IMG/VR virus record: IMGVR_UViG_3300020406_000028
Location: 1 to 23,147 of that record
DNA: 23,147 bases
Reading direction: 5' to 3' (one strand)
DNA from: a virus
In this document: positions 3,402 to 8,450 of the stretch, one piece after another
Layout: every line of letters begins with the position of its first letter
Position numbering within the stretch: position 1 is the stretch's first letter
Position numbers and translations under genes: made by a program
The notes under the pieces: generated by a model
The model's input: only the letters and a program-made list of their open reading frames with translations
Told to the model about the DNA's origin: nothing
The model's database searches: none

Positions 3402-6065
3402 TTACTCAAATGAGAATAAATCGTCAAATGTGTTTGCTGTATTAGTAAGTGTTTGAAGATCCCAGTTCAGCACATCCAGTAAGTTTCCTATTTTCTGATC
3501 CACAATAGCATTACTCATTGCTTCATCATCAAAGGGTAAGTCTTTGAACCACTGTGGAAGATGTGTCTGATCAATAGGATATCCTACACTTGTGTATCCC
3601 AGAGGATTAGGCTTTAGTTTACAAACAATAGTTTTAGCACCATCAACAATACTCATGCTGTACTTGTCACCGTTCATTCTACACAAATTATTCCAGTTCA
3701 TTGCCGCTCGAACATGTCCTGGCATGTTTGCTTTACCCAAGCGTTTTTCTTCATTTGTAAATTTTGTTAAGTTGTTAACACGCTTGGGTGTACCTTTTTC
3801 CCAGCCTGGACGTTCCTTAAATGCATACTTGAACTCTTTTATTTTGTCTACAACGTAGTCTTTATCCTTGCCCGTTAGAACATCCAGTAACAGTTCACTT
3901 AAAAAGTCCTGCATAAAGCGCGGAGTATCACTGCGTTTTAGATCCAGACCCATTGCTTTTACTTTACCAGGCTTGCCGTCCATATCCAGACGGAAACCTT
4001 CAAGATCATATATTAATGCCGCATAACGCTTCTTTGTGATATACAAACCTTTACTTGCTACAATCTCTCTGCCGCCTTTTATTATTTCTCCGTTCTCACG
4101 TGGACAGTGAAAAGCACGTTCCATAAACACAGGAAATTCATCATTGACTTTGTCTGCAATATTATCATACAACTGTGTGCATACTTCCTTGCCCCACTTT
4201 GCACGATTGTCTTCAACTTCTGTTTGCATTACAGGCCATGCACTAAAGTACACACTGTCTGTATCACCATATATTATACAATCACCTGTGTGTTCTTCTT
4301 TACCTGTGAGGATACCATTTACAGTTTCAGCCATGCGTTTTGTAATACAACGTCCTGTAAGTGTTGTGCTTTGTCCTATCCGAAAGTCATAAAAGCGACA
4401 ACCAGGATTAAGGATAGCACCATATAAACTGTTAAGATTAATCTTCTTTACAAGTTGTCGCTTGTCCCAGTATTCAACATCTCCATCTTCGTCCTTTGCA
4501 CGTTTAAGTTCTTTCTGCATGTCCTTACGTTCTGAATACCAGCGTTCCAGTAGCCCAGGCACAACGCCCTTGCGTTCATATGTAAATATAGTTCCATTAG
4601 CACTAAGTGTCCAGGGTTGATTGCTGTCAAATATTAGTCGCCAAACATCGTGTGCGCTTAGTGTATCACTGTCACCGTTCTCCCAGTCAATAGTAATCTC
4701 TGTGCCGCGCTCCATGTTCATCACTGCTTGATATTCTCTACTGCCGAACTCCCCCTCCCAGGCCTGCGCAAAACTTGTGCCGCCAGCAGTCTTTTCGCGT
4801 AGCATGTATTCTGTCATTGTTTGACGCAGTTGTCCTACGACTGTTTCTGGACCCATGTTGAGAGCGCGAATAACACTGGGATATAGACTGTTTATGTCAA
4901 TAGCACCTATCCAGTCATGCATACCCTTCTTAGGATATGCAACATAAGCACCAGCCGCCACTACTTTAGGACCATCGTCTCTGCTTTTGCGATTGGGCAC
5001 AACCATGCCCCGGGCATGTGCATCATTTATAATTGCTTGTTCTGTTACTGCAACTGCGCCCATTGTTGTCATTAGCAACACTGTGTTTTCATGTGCAAGC
5101 ACATTTGCAAGATCAATAAAACGTAGTTTCTTATCCAGTTTGTTTATTAACAAAACATCCTGTCTGTTGTATTCAATAAACTTCTCGAAGTCCTGATTGT
5201 ATAATTGATCCAGGGTGCCTTCATATGCAGTCTTGCGTTCATCAAGTTCATATTCTCCGATAGCATCCAGACTGTAACTGTGACGTTCTTCATATGTGTA
5301 CTTGCGATACAATTGCATGTAATCCAAATGCACACGGCCTACTAGATCAAATGTACTTTCTTCTTTGCCGAATCTATCAAATGTTCGTTTACGAGGATGC
5401 TGTCCAAATAAACAGAAACGTCTTAAGTCTTCCTTGCTTAATACTCTTGTAATTCTATTGAACGTATAGGGTATATCATATCCTTCACTGTTCCAGCCAC
5501 TTAGTATATCAGCATCTTCAATTAAATCCATAAACGTGTTTAGTAAGTCCGCTTCATTGTCAAACAGAAATGTGTTATCAAACGCTTTGCATATATCCCG
5601 CGCTGTTTCCATGGTCATGCTTTTGGGAGGCAGTGCCAGTGTAACCAGTTGTTGTACCCAGTCCAAGTACACTGTAATAGCAGTTATTGCATTGAAAGGA
5701 TCCTCTGTTGGAGAATAACCACGCTCACTATCGAAGTCAACTTCAATATCGAAAAACGCTGTGTGCAGTTTAGGCGATTCAGCACCCAAATAGTTTTCTT
5801 CCAGACAGCGGAATACAGGATTTATATCACTTTCATATAGTTTCTTGCCGCTCTGTATTTTAAGTTCCTTGTGGAACTCCTTGCTGTTGCGTGTTGCAAA
5901 ACGACTTACTGGCGTATCAAATATTGTTTTGTATTTGCCGCGAGGATCATCATAGTAAAACACATAGTTTGCAGGATATTCACGATACTCACGCTGACCG
6001 TTAACACGTTCCACAACGTGTATACGATCTCGTTCTCTATCAAACCATGCGTCTACATAACTCAT
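3402..6065 (-). CDS. 43: Family B DNA polymerase (T4 gp43-like)
   Basis: This 887-residue polymerase has all expected motifs. The proofreading exonuclease has ExoI FFDIE (D106, E108), ExoII GWNSEGYDIPY (D197) and ExoIII YNRQD (Y299, D303). The polymerase domain has motif A DINSLYPS (390-397), motif B KxxxNSLYG (541-549), motif C YGDTDS (599-604) and the ITKKR element (676-680). Its length matches T4 gp43 (898). The C-terminus ends TFDDLFSFE, resembling the clamp-binding tail of RB69/T4 gp43, consistent with use of the gp45 encoded just downstream. It is the last gene of an early-type transcript starting at 6870 (DsbA-like, two membrane proteins, polymerase), with an ATGA overlap with the preceding gene. 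It appears intact, with no intron, intein or split as found in some T4-like gp43 genes. Confidence 0.97.
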   Translation of the reverse strand: MSYVDAWFDRERDRIHVVERVNGQREYREYPANYVFYYDDPRGKYKTIFDTPVSRFATRNSKEFHKELKIQSGKKLYESDINPVFRCLEENYLGAESPKLHTAFFDIEVDFDSERGYSPTEDPFNAITAITVYLDWVQQLVTLALPPKSMTMETARDICKAFDNTFLFDNEADLLNTFMDLIEDADILSGWNSEGYDIPYTFNRITRVLSKEDLRRFCLFGQHPRKRTFDRFGKEESTFDLVGRVHLDYMQLYRKYTYEERHSYSLDAIGEYELDERKTAYEGTLDQLYNQDFEKFIEYNRQDVLLINKLDKKLRFIDLANVLAHENTVLLMTTMGAVAVTEQAIINDAHARGMVVPNRKSRDDGPKVVAAGAYVAYPKKGMHDWIGAIDINSLYPSVIRALNMGPETVVGQLRQTMTEYMLREKTAGGTSFAQAWEGEFGSREYQAVMNMERGTEITIDWENGDSDTLSAHDVWRLIFDSNQPWTLSANGTIFTYERKGVVPGLLERWYSERKDMQKELKRAKDEDGDVEYWDKRQLVKKINLNSLYGAILNPGCRFYDFRIGQSTTLTGRCITKRMAETVNGILTGKEEHTGDCIIYGDTDSVYFSAWPVMQTEVEDNRAKWGKEVCTQLYDNIADKVNDEFPVFMERAFHCPRENGEIIKGGREIVASKGLYITKKRYAALIYDLEGFRLDMDGKPGKVKAMGLDLKRSDTPRFMQDFLSELLLDVLTGKDKDYVVDKIKEFKYAFKERPGWEKGTPKRVNNLTKFTNEEKRLGKANMPGHVRAAMNWNNLCRMNGDKYSMSIVDGAKTIVCKLKPNPLGYTSVGYPIDQTHLPQWFKDLPFDDEAMSNAIVDQKIGNLLDVLNWDLQTLTNTANTFDDLFSFE

Positions 6066-6289
6066 TTAACAAGTCCTACAAAGTATATTAATGTTAACAG
6101 AACATTCATTAAAAGTACACTATTTTCTCGCCATAAATATCCCACTAGTATCCACAGTGTATTTGCTATTATAAAAAACCAGTGATGTAAATACATTTCA
6201 GGAACAAAACTTGCAAGACTAGCGGCTATAACCAGTGTTGCAGTTGCTAACCATGCTAACCATTGATAGGGTTTCTGTTCTACCACCAT
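6062..6289 (-). CDS. Small membrane protein, about three helices
   Basis: This 75-residue hydrophobic protein has probable transmembrane segments near residues 9-29, 34-52 and 56-73. The pattern IANTLWILVGYLWRENS followed by a helix ending YFVGL loosely recalls one three-helix unit of PnuC/SemiSWEET-like transporters, but I cannot assign it. It starts ATG at 6289, inside the last codons of the preceding membrane protein gene (10-base overlap), and its TGA overlaps the polymerase ATG. The two adjacent three-helix proteins may act as a pair. It lies in the early-type transcript leading to DNA polymerase. Function is unknown. Confidence 0.7.
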   Translation of the reverse strand: MVVEQKPYQWLAWLATATLVIAASLASFVPEMYLHHWFFIIANTLWILVGYLWRENSVLLMNVLLTLIYFVGLVK

Positions 6290-6561
6290 TGTGCCGCTAC
6301 TCCATAACCAAATATATTAATACATGCAAAGTAAAAAGTAAGAAGCATAATCCAGGCCGCTCCTCTACGCCAACTTGCATACAGTTGCGTTATGCTACCC
6401 ACAAAGAATCCTGGATACACAAGTAGCATATTTGGATTATCTGCATTTATGGCCAGCATAAGACTAGCGCCTACTGTAAACACAAAACTTATAAGTTCAA
6501 ATGTAAATGCTGTAGTATCGCTGGTGTAACTGTTTATCCAGAATTGTTTTACTGATTGCAC
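6280..6561 (-). CDS. Small membrane protein with conserved-looking YPGFFVGS and RRGAAW segments, GTG start
   Basis: This 93-residue protein starts with GTG (6561), directly abutting the TAA of the DsbA-like gene, which suggests translational coupling; no clear ribosome site precedes it. About three membrane helices are visible: residues 18-38 (FTFELISFVFTVGASLMLAI), about 46-62 (VYPGFFVGSITQLYA) and 68-89. RRGAAW between helices 2 and 3 gives a positive loop. I associate this type of protein with marine T4-like phages but know of no function. Its end, ...AAQWW, is read from the same bases that start the next gene. Candidate roles include an inner-membrane transporter half or a superinfection or replication-anchoring factor; none is shown by the sequence. 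Confidence 0.7.
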   Translation of the reverse strand: MQSVKQFWINSYTSDTTAFTFELISFVFTVGASLMLAINADNPNMLLVYPGFFVGSITQLYASWRRGAAWIMLLTFYFACINIFGYGVAAQWW

Positions 6562-6819
6562 TTAGATTTTGCCCACTGTGGCAAGAATGTTTTCCAGTGT
6601 AGCGTAATCATCACTATGCTTGTCGAAGTCTGCCTTGTAAGCAGTCCTAATTGCTTTGCTTAGTACAGTAGGTTTAATCTGCATTTCCTCTGCAATTGCT
6701 TTTACTGTATCTTTTAGGCCACCATTTAGATCATCAACTTCCTGCATTACAGTTAGGCCTTCGTTGATTAGTTGTGTAAGTTTTGCTTTTTCTTCACTTG
6801 AAAAGACTCTATCAGTCAT
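6562..6819 (-). CDS. DsbA-like double-stranded DNA-binding protein (T4 late-transcription accessory type)
   Basis: This 85-residue helical, soluble protein starts MTDRVFSSEEKAKLTQLI and has the segment LKDTVKAIAEEMQIKPTVLS, then KAIRTAYKADFDKHSDD. The length and pattern match the small protein annotated in T4-like marine phages as DsbA (T4 dsbA is 89 residues), which binds dsDNA and enhances transcription from late promoters. A good ribosome site AAGGAG lies 7 bases before the ATG. It is the first gene of a four-gene transcript behind a near-consensus sigma70 promoter and precedes the DNA polymerase, so it would be made before late genes are needed. Similarity to T4 DsbA itself is weak by eye, so the name is provisional. 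Confidence 0.6.
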   Translation of the reverse strand: MTDRVFSSEEKAKLTQLINEGLTVMQEVDDLNGGLKDTVKAIAEEMQIKPTVLSKAIRTAYKADFDKHSDDYATLENILATVGKI

Positions 6820-6846: not shown

Positions 6847-6875
6847 ATTGTACTACTTTAATCCTTGACTGTCAA
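6847..6875 (-). promoter_or_regulatory. Sigma70-type promoter (TTGACA-17 bp-TACAAT)
   Basis: On the minus strand TTGACA (6870-6875) is followed by 17 bases and TACAAT (6847-6852). The -35 box lies inside the last codons of the upstream membrane-protein gene (stop at 6853-6855). It would drive the DsbA-like, two membrane and polymerase genes. The near-perfect consensus and correct spacing make this a strong call. Confidence 0.75.
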
Positions 6876-7314
6876 CACTAAAATCATAAGTTAAATATTC
6901 ACCACTGTTTTGTTCTCCAGGACGATGCTTGTTATACTTGCCTATCTGTTGGCTTACGCCCTTTTCGCTCCTGCCCTTTGCACGTTGCATTTGTTTCTTA
7001 TTGCTATCTGTTGCAGGAATACTGTAGTTTTTAGGCATCATACGTTCTGGCTCTAAGACCCATACATAGAGTTCAGTACCGTCATTGTTTTCTATGTGAT
7101 TAAGATATAGACTTTCTTCAGGTATTTCCTGCTTGATAGGATATCCAAGCATTTGTGTAATTGTGTTATATCCAGTAAAAGCACAGAACATTGCAACAGG
7201 TATAACAACAAACATTATTAGTGCGTTTCTATAAAAGTGAACTCCTATTGCTAAAACTATTATTATAAGTAATATCATACTAGCAAAAAATGGAAATAGA
7301 TTATAATCAAACAT
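6853..7314 (-). CDS. Third membrane protein of the MotA/ExbB-like operon
   Basis: This 153-residue protein has two hydrophobic helices at residues 8-27 and 31-49, then about 100 hydrophilic residues with ESLYLNHIENNDGTELYVW and a basic stretch KKQMQRAKGRSEKG. I recognise no family. Its ATG overlaps the stop of the ExbD/MotB-like gene (TAATG), so the three membrane genes at 8427-6853 are translationally coupled. The soluble part could lie in periplasm or cytoplasm; a two-helix hairpin would keep both ends on one side. It is probably an accessory subunit of the channel-like pair. Confidence 0.7.
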   Translation of the reverse strand: MFDYNLFPFFASMILLIIIVLAIGVHFYRNALIMFVVIPVAMFCAFTGYNTITQMLGYPIKQEIPEESLYLNHIENNDGTELYVWVLEPERMMPKNYSIPATDSNKKQMQRAKGRSEKGVSQQIGKYNKHRPGEQNSGEYLTYDFSVDSQGLK

Positions 7315-7994
7315 TACAAACCTCCTCCTTCAACAACATCTCTTCTGCCAGAACCACTGTGCATGCTCTTTCGTGTAATAAAGTCGCTGGGTGTTGTATT
7401 GTGTCCTAAATACGCATCATCATCTGCTACACTAAATCTTACTAAACTTATGTTTTGTCCTGTCTCAACGTAAGGATATGTTGCTATAAAAGTTTCCACA
7501 TATGGATTAATTTTAATTACTGATACAGTCATATTACCTGGCAAATCCTGTCGGGCTGTGCCTTCATAACTAGTGAATTTTCTATTGTATACATGCGCCA
7601 TTACTTCATATTCACCTGCTATTGTGCCTCTTAATGTAACTACTTCTCTATTTAAAAATATAGTTTTCTTTTGACCGTCTTTTGTTACACTGTCATTACT
7701 TGTGCCAAGATCATCCTTTTCCAAATGCATTAGACCTACACTTTTAGTAAGGAAACTTACAATGTTACCAGCAGGATCTTTTATCCATAAATCAACATCG
7801 TCATTAAGATGGTGATCCCATTCAAGCACTACTATGTATTCTGCTTTTTTCTCTACATCTCCCTGTTTAGCAATAGGATTAATTAGTATAAATGCAATTA
7901 CAAATAGATATACAAAGCCTATTACTAAATTAAATAATAGATCTGTAAATCCTATACTGCTTTTGTATTTGAGTCTGTTATCTGGATTCAACAT
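7314..7994 (-). CDS. ExbD/MotB-like membrane protein with DUF2135 (YfaP)-like outer domain
   Basis: This 226-residue protein has a short cytoplasmic N-terminus and one transmembrane helix, SIGFTDLLFNLVIGFVYLFV (residues 13-32, extending to about 39). D18 sits at the start of the helix, where MotB (AYADFVTAMM...) and ExbD/TolR have their essential proton-carrying aspartate. The remainder is a beta-rich domain with DDVDLWIKDPAGNIVSF (65-81) and GLMHLEKDDLG (87-97), resembling the DVDLxVxDPxGE...G...D.G signature of DUF2135/YfaP domains. There is no recognisable OmpA-type peptidoglycan-binding domain. The gene overlaps the MotA/ExbB-like gene by 17 bases. Together they look like a proton-driven stator or energiser pair. 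The family relationship is inferred from topology and motif; the function in the phage is unknown. Confidence 0.65.
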   Translation of the reverse strand: MLNPDNRLKYKSSIGFTDLLFNLVIGFVYLFVIAFILINPIAKQGDVEKKAEYIVVLEWDHHLNDDVDLWIKDPAGNIVSFLTKSVGLMHLEKDDLGTSNDSVTKDGQKKTIFLNREVVTLRGTIAGEYEVMAHVYNRKFTSYEGTARQDLPGNMTVSVIKINPYVETFIATYPYVETGQNISLVRFSVADDDAYLGHNTTPSDFITRKSMHSGSGRRDVVEGGGL

Positions 7995-8427
7995 TGACTA
8001 ACTGTACCTTAAGAACCTGACTGCATACCATACCCACTAGAGTTGTATACAATGCAGTACTCATGCCCAGTGCCATGTCCGTGAGTGCATTTTTAACACT
8101 GCCTGTGTCATTTACATTTAAACTTTCAAAACTGCCGCCCAGCATTAAAATAAATCCTATCACTGTGCCTATCATACCCATTGCAAGTAATAGTTCAGTA
8201 ATAAACCATCCAACATTTGTGCCGCCTGTAATATTATGGCCATTTGAACTTAAATGTGTTAACCAGCCTATATACATGCTACTAAAAAACCAAGTAATCA
8301 TTATGGCAAAACTTAATCGCGTTGTATCCTTTGCAAGTAATTCATCTATAAAACCAAAACTATAGGCAGTAAACAATACCGCACAACTGGTGCAGAATAG
8401 CAACCACCATCTCAAAAATCGTGACAT
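7978..8427 (-). CDS. MotA/TolQ/ExbB-like proton channel protein
   Basis: This 149-residue membrane protein has four probable helices near residues 7-27, 37-58, 73-97 and 117-142. The third contains GMIGTVIGFILML (84-96) and the fourth MALGMSTALYTTLVGMVCS (118-136). These correspond to the GxxGTVxG and A...G...AL.TT..G signatures of the ExbB/TolQ/MotA family, where threonines face the proton path. It is shorter than typical ExbB or TolQ (about 230-240) and lacks the large cytoplasmic loop. AAGGAG at 8433-8438 is a strong ribosome site, and an exact TATAAATA late box (8443-8450) is immediately upstream, so expression should be late. It is followed directly by its ExbD/MotB-like partner. Confidence 0.75.
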   Translation of the reverse strand: MSRFLRWWLLFCTSCAVLFTAYSFGFIDELLAKDTTRLSFAIMITWFFSSMYIGWLTHLSSNGHNITGGTNVGWFITELLLAMGMIGTVIGFILMLGGSFESLNVNDTGSVKNALTDMALGMSTALYTTLVGMVCSQVLKVQLVNVESR

Positions 8428-8442
8428 GTGCGCTCCTTAATG

Positions 8443-8450
8443 TATTTATA
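8443..8450 (-). promoter_or_regulatory. T4-type late promoter box TATAAATA
   Basis: Minus-strand GCATATAAATAC, identical over 12 bases to the box at 3386-3393, lies in the 28-base gap before the MotA/ExbB-like gene. The AAGGAG ribosome site begins only about 5 bases downstream of the box, so the transcript leader would be very short. Confidence 0.75.

Follow-up and report, generated by a model that had tools for sequence, protein, structure and literature searches.

Three overlapping membrane-protein genes, referred to here as A, B and C, appear from their sequences to encode motors, presumably ion-driven and of 5:2 stoichiometry, that form a new subfamily with its own periplasmic head and a third subunit. 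The genes were analysed in a window comprising the whole of a 23,147-base IMG/VR virus fragment (IMGVR_UViG_3300020406_000028), and the same trio recurs in other phages and on bacterial chromosomes. Its products very probably constitute a motor of the MotA/TolQ/ExbB class, and the whole explanation favored here, an inner-membrane motor together with a role in periplasmic turnover, is assigned a probability of about 0.42. The literature searched contained no account of a MotA/ExbB-class motor encoded by a phage, and the isolate records examined, that of the classic temperate phage 16-3 included, carry no functional name on the trio genes.

The three genes and their predicted products

All three genes lie on the minus strand, in the order A (8427-7978, 149 aa), B (7994-7314, 226 aa) and C (7314-6853, 153 aa), in agreement with the first-pass annotation, which had recognized three overlapping membrane-protein genes at this locus. 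A overlaps B by 17 nt, and B overlaps C by a single nucleotide, the stop of the former and the start of the latter being combined in TAATG, a junction that is preceded by a GGAGGAGG Shine-Dalgarno sequence. Short overlaps of this kind are typical of the trios of relatives, and chance reading frames are ruled out by the recurrence of the genes over 176 loci. Immediately 3' of C, the gene of an 85-aa protein (6562..6819, minus strand; PHROG 12534 / 639, PHROG 639 being annotated as transcriptional regulator) is a conserved neighbor of the trio within the window's clade; it is probably carried on the trio's transcript, and its product is probably not part of the motor. Further downstream lies the gene of a 93-aa hydrophobic protein (6280..6561, minus strand), conserved in 16 clade loci, which together with a 75-aa hydrophobic protein, weakly DUF6552-like, occupies the stretch (6062-6561) between the 85-aa gene and a T4-type DNA polymerase. 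A 492-aa protein encoded at 180-1655 resembles tRNA-guanine transglycosylase/DpdA by eye, has no Pfam match, and is found near the polymerase across the clade.

The profile comparisons argue strongly for the membership of A in the MotA/TolQ/ExbB family, as had been proposed for a four-helix protein at this place. A scores 29.9 bits against Pfam MotA_ExbB (PF01618; cut-off 22.9), and the same cut-off is exceeded by the A proteins of three relatives (L121, L002 and L005) and not reached by the homologue p038 of phage 16-3. Against the PDB, a profile of the A family matched MotA 8gqy (E 2.6e-7) and PomA (7e-4), with ZorA and TolQ also among the matches. The signatures GMIGTVIG and STALYTTLVG, on which the original proposal was built, are located at residues 84-91 and 123-132, and the conserved columns of the family align in the profile alignment with GMIGTLIG and ALITTLYG of MotA 8gqy. 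Residues G84, G87, T129 and G132 are kept in all 175 proteins compared, and T88 in 171 of the 175. AlphaFold prediction of the window protein with 43 relatives (mean pLDDT 84.9) gave helices at 3-23, 38-61, 67-101 and 108-147. In a Foldseek search, nearly all top rows were MotA, PomA, ExbB, TolQ or ZorA chains, the best TM-score among the rows listed belonging to a ZorAB chain (TMq 0.50); no E-value fell below 0.1, and the fold was not named from Foldseek alone because these E-values are weak and the sequence profile is the stronger evidence. PADLOC ZorA models matched A weakly (best E 1.1e-5) and over the helical core only. Few residues separate helices 2 and 3 in the phage proteins, and the chromosomal versions (~200-250 aa) carry a longer cytoplasmic segment at this position. 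The shortness of the protein, once regarded as a departure from known types, has a precedent in ExbB2, whose NCBIfam model has only 138 positions.

B is predicted to be composed of a sole membrane helix (residues 11-38), a short linker and a periplasmic beta-sandwich (53-199), with a mean pLDDT of 86.8. Aspartate D18, which was absent from every search pattern used to collect B, sits within this helix and is kept in 176 of 176 proteins. Homologues losing the aspartate or GxxGTVxG were looked for as evidence against a motor; D18 is lost in none and the channel residues of A are conserved as given above, so that the motor reading stands. In the head, W59, D66, D68, L91, D94, D95, G97, E117, R122 and G127 are invariant. 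Among 55 B proteins searched with Pfam, none showed an OmpA or ExbD domain, which bears out the earlier remark that a peptidoglycan-binding domain is lacking. The first description of B was sound in its single helix with D18 and less so in its DUF2135/YfaP-like head: a similar sequence pattern had been noticed, but window B has no Pfam match to DUF2135 (PF09906) and only 3 of the 55 proteins reach it, weakly (best E 0.0034), and this name was not adopted. Foldseek returned weak matches only, the best being DUF4425 at E 3.4e-3, and the fold was left unnamed since no solved structure matches well. For B and C alike, Pfam, PHROGs, NCBIfam and PADLOC offered no convincing family match. B is thus distinct from MotB, ExbD and ZorB, with neither an OmpA nor an ExbD domain and at best a weak trace of DUF2135, and it is this difference on which the proposal of a new subfamily is founded.

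C was expected to be a two-helix protein, and by hydropathy the versions inspected do have two hydrophobic helices, joined by a positively charged turn (HFYRN, NKLRW, GSRRQ or APRRL). According to the positive-inside rule, the turn would be cytoplasmic, and both ends, together with the C-terminal part that carries an LGYP motif, are predicted to be periplasmic. Neither Pfam nor the PDB offers a clear relative of C, and PADLOC, examined with the Zorya effectors ZorC/ZorD and ZorE in view, gives no match for it. C is not TonB- or TolA-like, having two helices and a short C-terminal part in place of a single N-terminal helix and a long periplasmic shaft. Because A, B and C stand together in 173 of 176 loci and are the sole conserved genes of the chromosomal ones, C is considered a true third component of the module.

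Motors of the MotA/TolQ/ExbB family with 5:2, ion-driven assemblies are known as generic ion transporters (GIT; PMC12505986). The trio resembles them in the conserved GxxGT of helix 3 and (T/S)T of helix 4 of A, in a single-helix partner with an invariant membrane aspartate, and in its adjacent, overlapping genes; it differs in that a predicted beta-sandwich takes the place of the ExbD/TolR or OmpA-type domain at the end of B, that phage A is nearly devoid of a cytoplasmic domain, and that the two-helix C nearly always follows. With ZorA/ZorB of Zorya (PMC11890865), it has in common the helical core, the weak ZorA profile matches and a partner with a critical aspartate, whereas the ZorA tail is missing from the 149-aa A, the peptidoglycan-binding domain of ZorB is missing from B, and neither B nor C is matched by PADLOC. 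The short ExbB2 of ExbBD systems (NCBIfam TIGR02805) is similar to A in size; however, chromosomal A matches this model at E 0.088 only, B is not ExbD, and no TonB is present.

With respect to expression, a T4-late-promoter-like element, TATAAATA, is present at 8443-8450 on the minus strand, 23 nt before the ATG of A. The exact box reported at the outset is hence real, but as an octamer it occurs at chance level (2 in the window versus 2.08 expected), so that it is not significant by itself and only its position is conserved. TAAATA is found at -18 to -34 of A in 12 of 16 non-redundant relatives from the window's clade (shuffle control: mean 0.46, maximum 4 of 16), and the fixed position makes a T4-late-type promoter before A likely in this clade. 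Late expression of the trio, initially put forward without restriction, is plausible for the window's clade on account of this motif and does not appear to be general: in rhizobiophages, the trio is found among replication and nucleotide-metabolism genes, its neighbors including topoisomerase, late-sigma, recombination-nuclease, clamp and DNA polymerase I genes.

Distribution in phages and on proteobacterial chromosomes

A tblastn search of 50,697 phage records with B gave 27 matching records, all from Rhizobium or Sinorhizobium phages, among them T4-like Pootjesviridae of ~155 kb, a 171-kb phage, 68-kb phages, and the temperate phage 16-3 with its kin. A search for the trio in other marine T4-like genomes had been recommended at the outset, and the trio recurs in hundreds of marine phages: a single alignment query against IMG/VR gave 378 relatives, the best 80 being taken for analysis. 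A scan of bacterial and archaeal genomes added 216 further relatives, and the best 80 of these, judged by record title, are mostly alpha- and gammaproteobacterial, with some from betaproteobacteria; the hosts include Azospirillum (two copies), Skermanella, Tistrella, Granulosicoccaceae and Thiobacillus. In the class to which Azospirillum belongs, the alphaproteobacteria, B is present in 24 of 190 sampled genomes, or about one in eight. Two divergent copies of B were observed in Azospirillum and Skermanella (L096 and L166 on the same contig; L105 in genome G005).

Counted gene by gene over the 176 loci, A is found in 175, B in 176 and C in 173, the missing members including those on contigs cut near the trio. 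At 81 chromosomal loci, the sole conserved genes are A (81), B (81) and C (80), surrounded by genes that are varied by eye. A-B-C is accordingly a conserved stand-alone module, and since it exists as such on proteobacterial chromosomes, the trio is not a phage peculiarity, as had been supposed. An unrooted tree of B is divided into two sides, each with support 100: one unites marine phages with the T4-like and 68-kb rhizobiophages, the other the chromosomal copies with the 16-3-like temperate phages. B of the 16-3 group is 39-42% identical to that of Azospirillum. At least two phage lineages possess the trio.

In three 16-3-like temperate phages, endonuclease-type genes are located inside the trio operon, at either the A-B or the B-C junction: a GIY-YIG-like gene by eye (L092, 5222-5959), one annotated as Seg-like (L094, 5228-5986), and one annotated as HNH (L093, 6544-7086). 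The trio looks in this respect like a conserved landing site for genes of the homing-endonuclease type.

Periplasmic proteases and a peptide importer as genomic partners

The trio of one marine group is linked to an SbmA/BacA importer (PF05992, E 2.9e-76) and to a membrane-anchored protein, P270, which has ClpP-like motifs with invariant ESPGG, S156 and H179. P270 has no Pfam or PDB match, and on these motifs it is regarded as a putative periplasmic serine protease. When the search was started from SbmA, 30 of 40 close relatives were found to carry all three elements (P270, SbmA and trio genes) inside a 6-kb stretch, arranged either as P270-SbmA-A-B-C or as A-B-C-P270-SbmA; among the remaining 10, five are truncated at contig ends, and the other five belong to one lineage, in which one 342-kb contig carries the trio ~30 kb away. 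The trio is found on 28 of 43 P270-bearing viral contigs, and P270 on only 14 of 33 trio contigs. On marine trio contigs without P270 (L025, L042, L043 and L045), an HtrA-type protease with an N-terminal anchor lies close to SbmA. A functional link is suggested by the fact that genomes with the trio have either of two unrelated proteases in the place next to this importer. Nothing relevant to SbmA in phages was found in the literature searched.

Several other genes accompany the trio in marine phages. An SbmA/BacA-family importer is encoded beside the ClpP-like periplasmic protein in L044 (5671-7514), L061 (9607-11529) and relatives. A ClpP-family gene (PF00574, E 5.3e-29) lies directly 3' of C in L044 (9171-9743), its relatives and many SbmA-type loci, with no ATPase of its own in view. 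HscB- and IscA-like proteins, recognized by eye, are encoded immediately 5' of A in five contigs of 58-343 kb (L042, L048, L059, L060 and L077), and in some contigs an acyl carrier protein is also found upstream of the trio (Pfam PP-binding in L042).

In rhizobiophages, a Trypsin_2 protease (HtrA-type) is present in eight of the nine that carry the trio, and in 16-3, NV1.1.1, X2_25 and TM3_3_14B, it immediately precedes A or is separated from it by one small gene; that of 16-3 is HtrA/DegP-like. No SbmA was found in the five rhizobiophages tested; rhizobial hosts possess BacA. The association has exceptions in both directions, as the protease occurs without the trio in the Sinorhizobium phage phiM9, and the trio without the protease in phage I1_18. 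The latter phage, of 171 kb, encodes a DUF2828/DUF7788 (VWA-like) protein ~2 kb downstream (L005, 8859-10292). A Fisher test of trio versus protease over the phage records yields p ~5e-49, a value not usable as a probability because the records are related and share hosts, and the co-occurrence counts of partners are likewise inflated by the shared ancestry of the phages.

The window's own lineage presents a different picture. No such protease or SbmA was recognized in the 23-kb window, and the 316-kb contig L012 (G238), with a trio closely related to that of the window, has no SbmA, P270, Trypsin_2 or S41 peptidase and only a ClpP of the usual family. An alternative periplasmic protease was considered and rejected, as S41 peptidases occur in none of 10 window-related contigs and ClpP in two. 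A turnover role would therefore reach the window by inference only. SbmA/BacA importers and HtrA/DegP proteases are recurrent partners of the trio in the same phages, and to our knowledge they are components of no known 5:2 motor.

A proposed mechanism and its alternatives

In the proposed mechanism, a ring of A subunits, presumably five, would enclose a pair of B helices. Ions would enter along the conserved threonines of A, protonate or bind D18 of B, and exit to the cytoplasm, and their passage would drive a relative movement that is delivered to the two periplasmic beta-sandwich heads of B. C, with both ends in the periplasm, would serve as a third subunit, probably for coupling or anchoring. 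In many of the phages possessing the trio, the likely downstream job of such a motor would be the turnover of periplasmic proteins or peptides, with an SbmA/BacA-type peptide importer as partner in marine phages; rhizobiophages may make use of the BacA of their hosts. The coupling of the trio to periplasmic proteolysis and peptide turnover is tentative when taken separately, and stands at clearly worse than even odds. The periplasm has no ATP. A more specific version, in which A-B-C would for that reason act as the energy unit of a machine for periplasmic protein degradation or peptide salvage, the proton-driven motor pulling or unfolding substrates for the periplasmic serine protease (HtrA-type or ClpP-like) and SbmA/BacA importing the resulting peptides, is decidedly on the unlikely side.

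The main rival, though an improbable one in itself at something like one chance in four, is an envelope force transducer similar to Tol-Pal or Ton, in which the motor moves or stretches a partner in the outer membrane or cell wall. It would maintain the envelope or energize uptake, both in infected cells and in the bacteria that own the module, and the proteases would be independent envelope-care genes. Such a role would fit the stand-alone copies in alpha-, beta- and gammaproteobacteria (24/190 alphaproteobacterial genomes), the presence of TolQ among the PDB profile matches and the lack of a protease in the window's lineage, but the module offers no TolA/TonB-like shaft, C being a two-helix protein with both ends predicted outside, and no ExbD/TolR domain in B. 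A Zorya-like system for superinfection exclusion or defence, with a motor that senses or disturbs the envelope entry of competing phages, is also unlikely, and rather more so. Phages do carry exclusion systems, A has its weak PADLOC ZorA matches (best E 1.1e-5), and ZorAB gave the best listed Foldseek TM-score; against these stand the missing long ZorA tail and OmpA-type ZorB domain, the lack of any PADLOC match for B and C, chromosomal neighbors that by eye resemble ordinary genes of metabolism and transport and not defence genes, and the position of the rhizobiophage trio among replication genes.

Two further readings are less probable still. A regulated ion leak, by which, at a late stage of infection, A-B dissipates the membrane potential and so times lysis, would agree with the late-promoter-like element conserved upstream of A and with the established ion conduction of MotAB, a motor of this class. 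It is very unlikely in view of the chromosomal copies in growing bacteria and of a strongly conserved periplasmic head and a third gene that a leak would not need; moreover, in Zorya, for which depolarisation had once been suspected, none was observed (PMC11890865). That the phage subunits act as decoys, mixing with and poisoning ZorAB, TolQR or MotAB of the host, is conceivable from the homology of A to the ZorA, TolQ and MotA rings and hardly credible otherwise, as practically all loci provide A with a B and a C of its own, chromosomal copies exist, and no similarity of B or C to host partners was detected. For lysis timing, depolarisation and exclusion, the functions suggested in the first-pass annotation, no evidence has emerged, the recurrent partners being periplasmic serine proteases and SbmA/BacA importers.

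If the version with A-B-C as the energy unit of periplasmic degradation or salvage is correct, phages would carry the trio so that envelope proteins could be stripped or recycled in the course of infection. The finding raises the question of whether ion flow can power protein turnover outside the cytoplasm, a question that can be put to the test because periplasmic proteases and peptide importers repeatedly accompany the trio, and the chromosomal trio in about one in eight of the sampled alphaproteobacteria means that a tractable host system exists.
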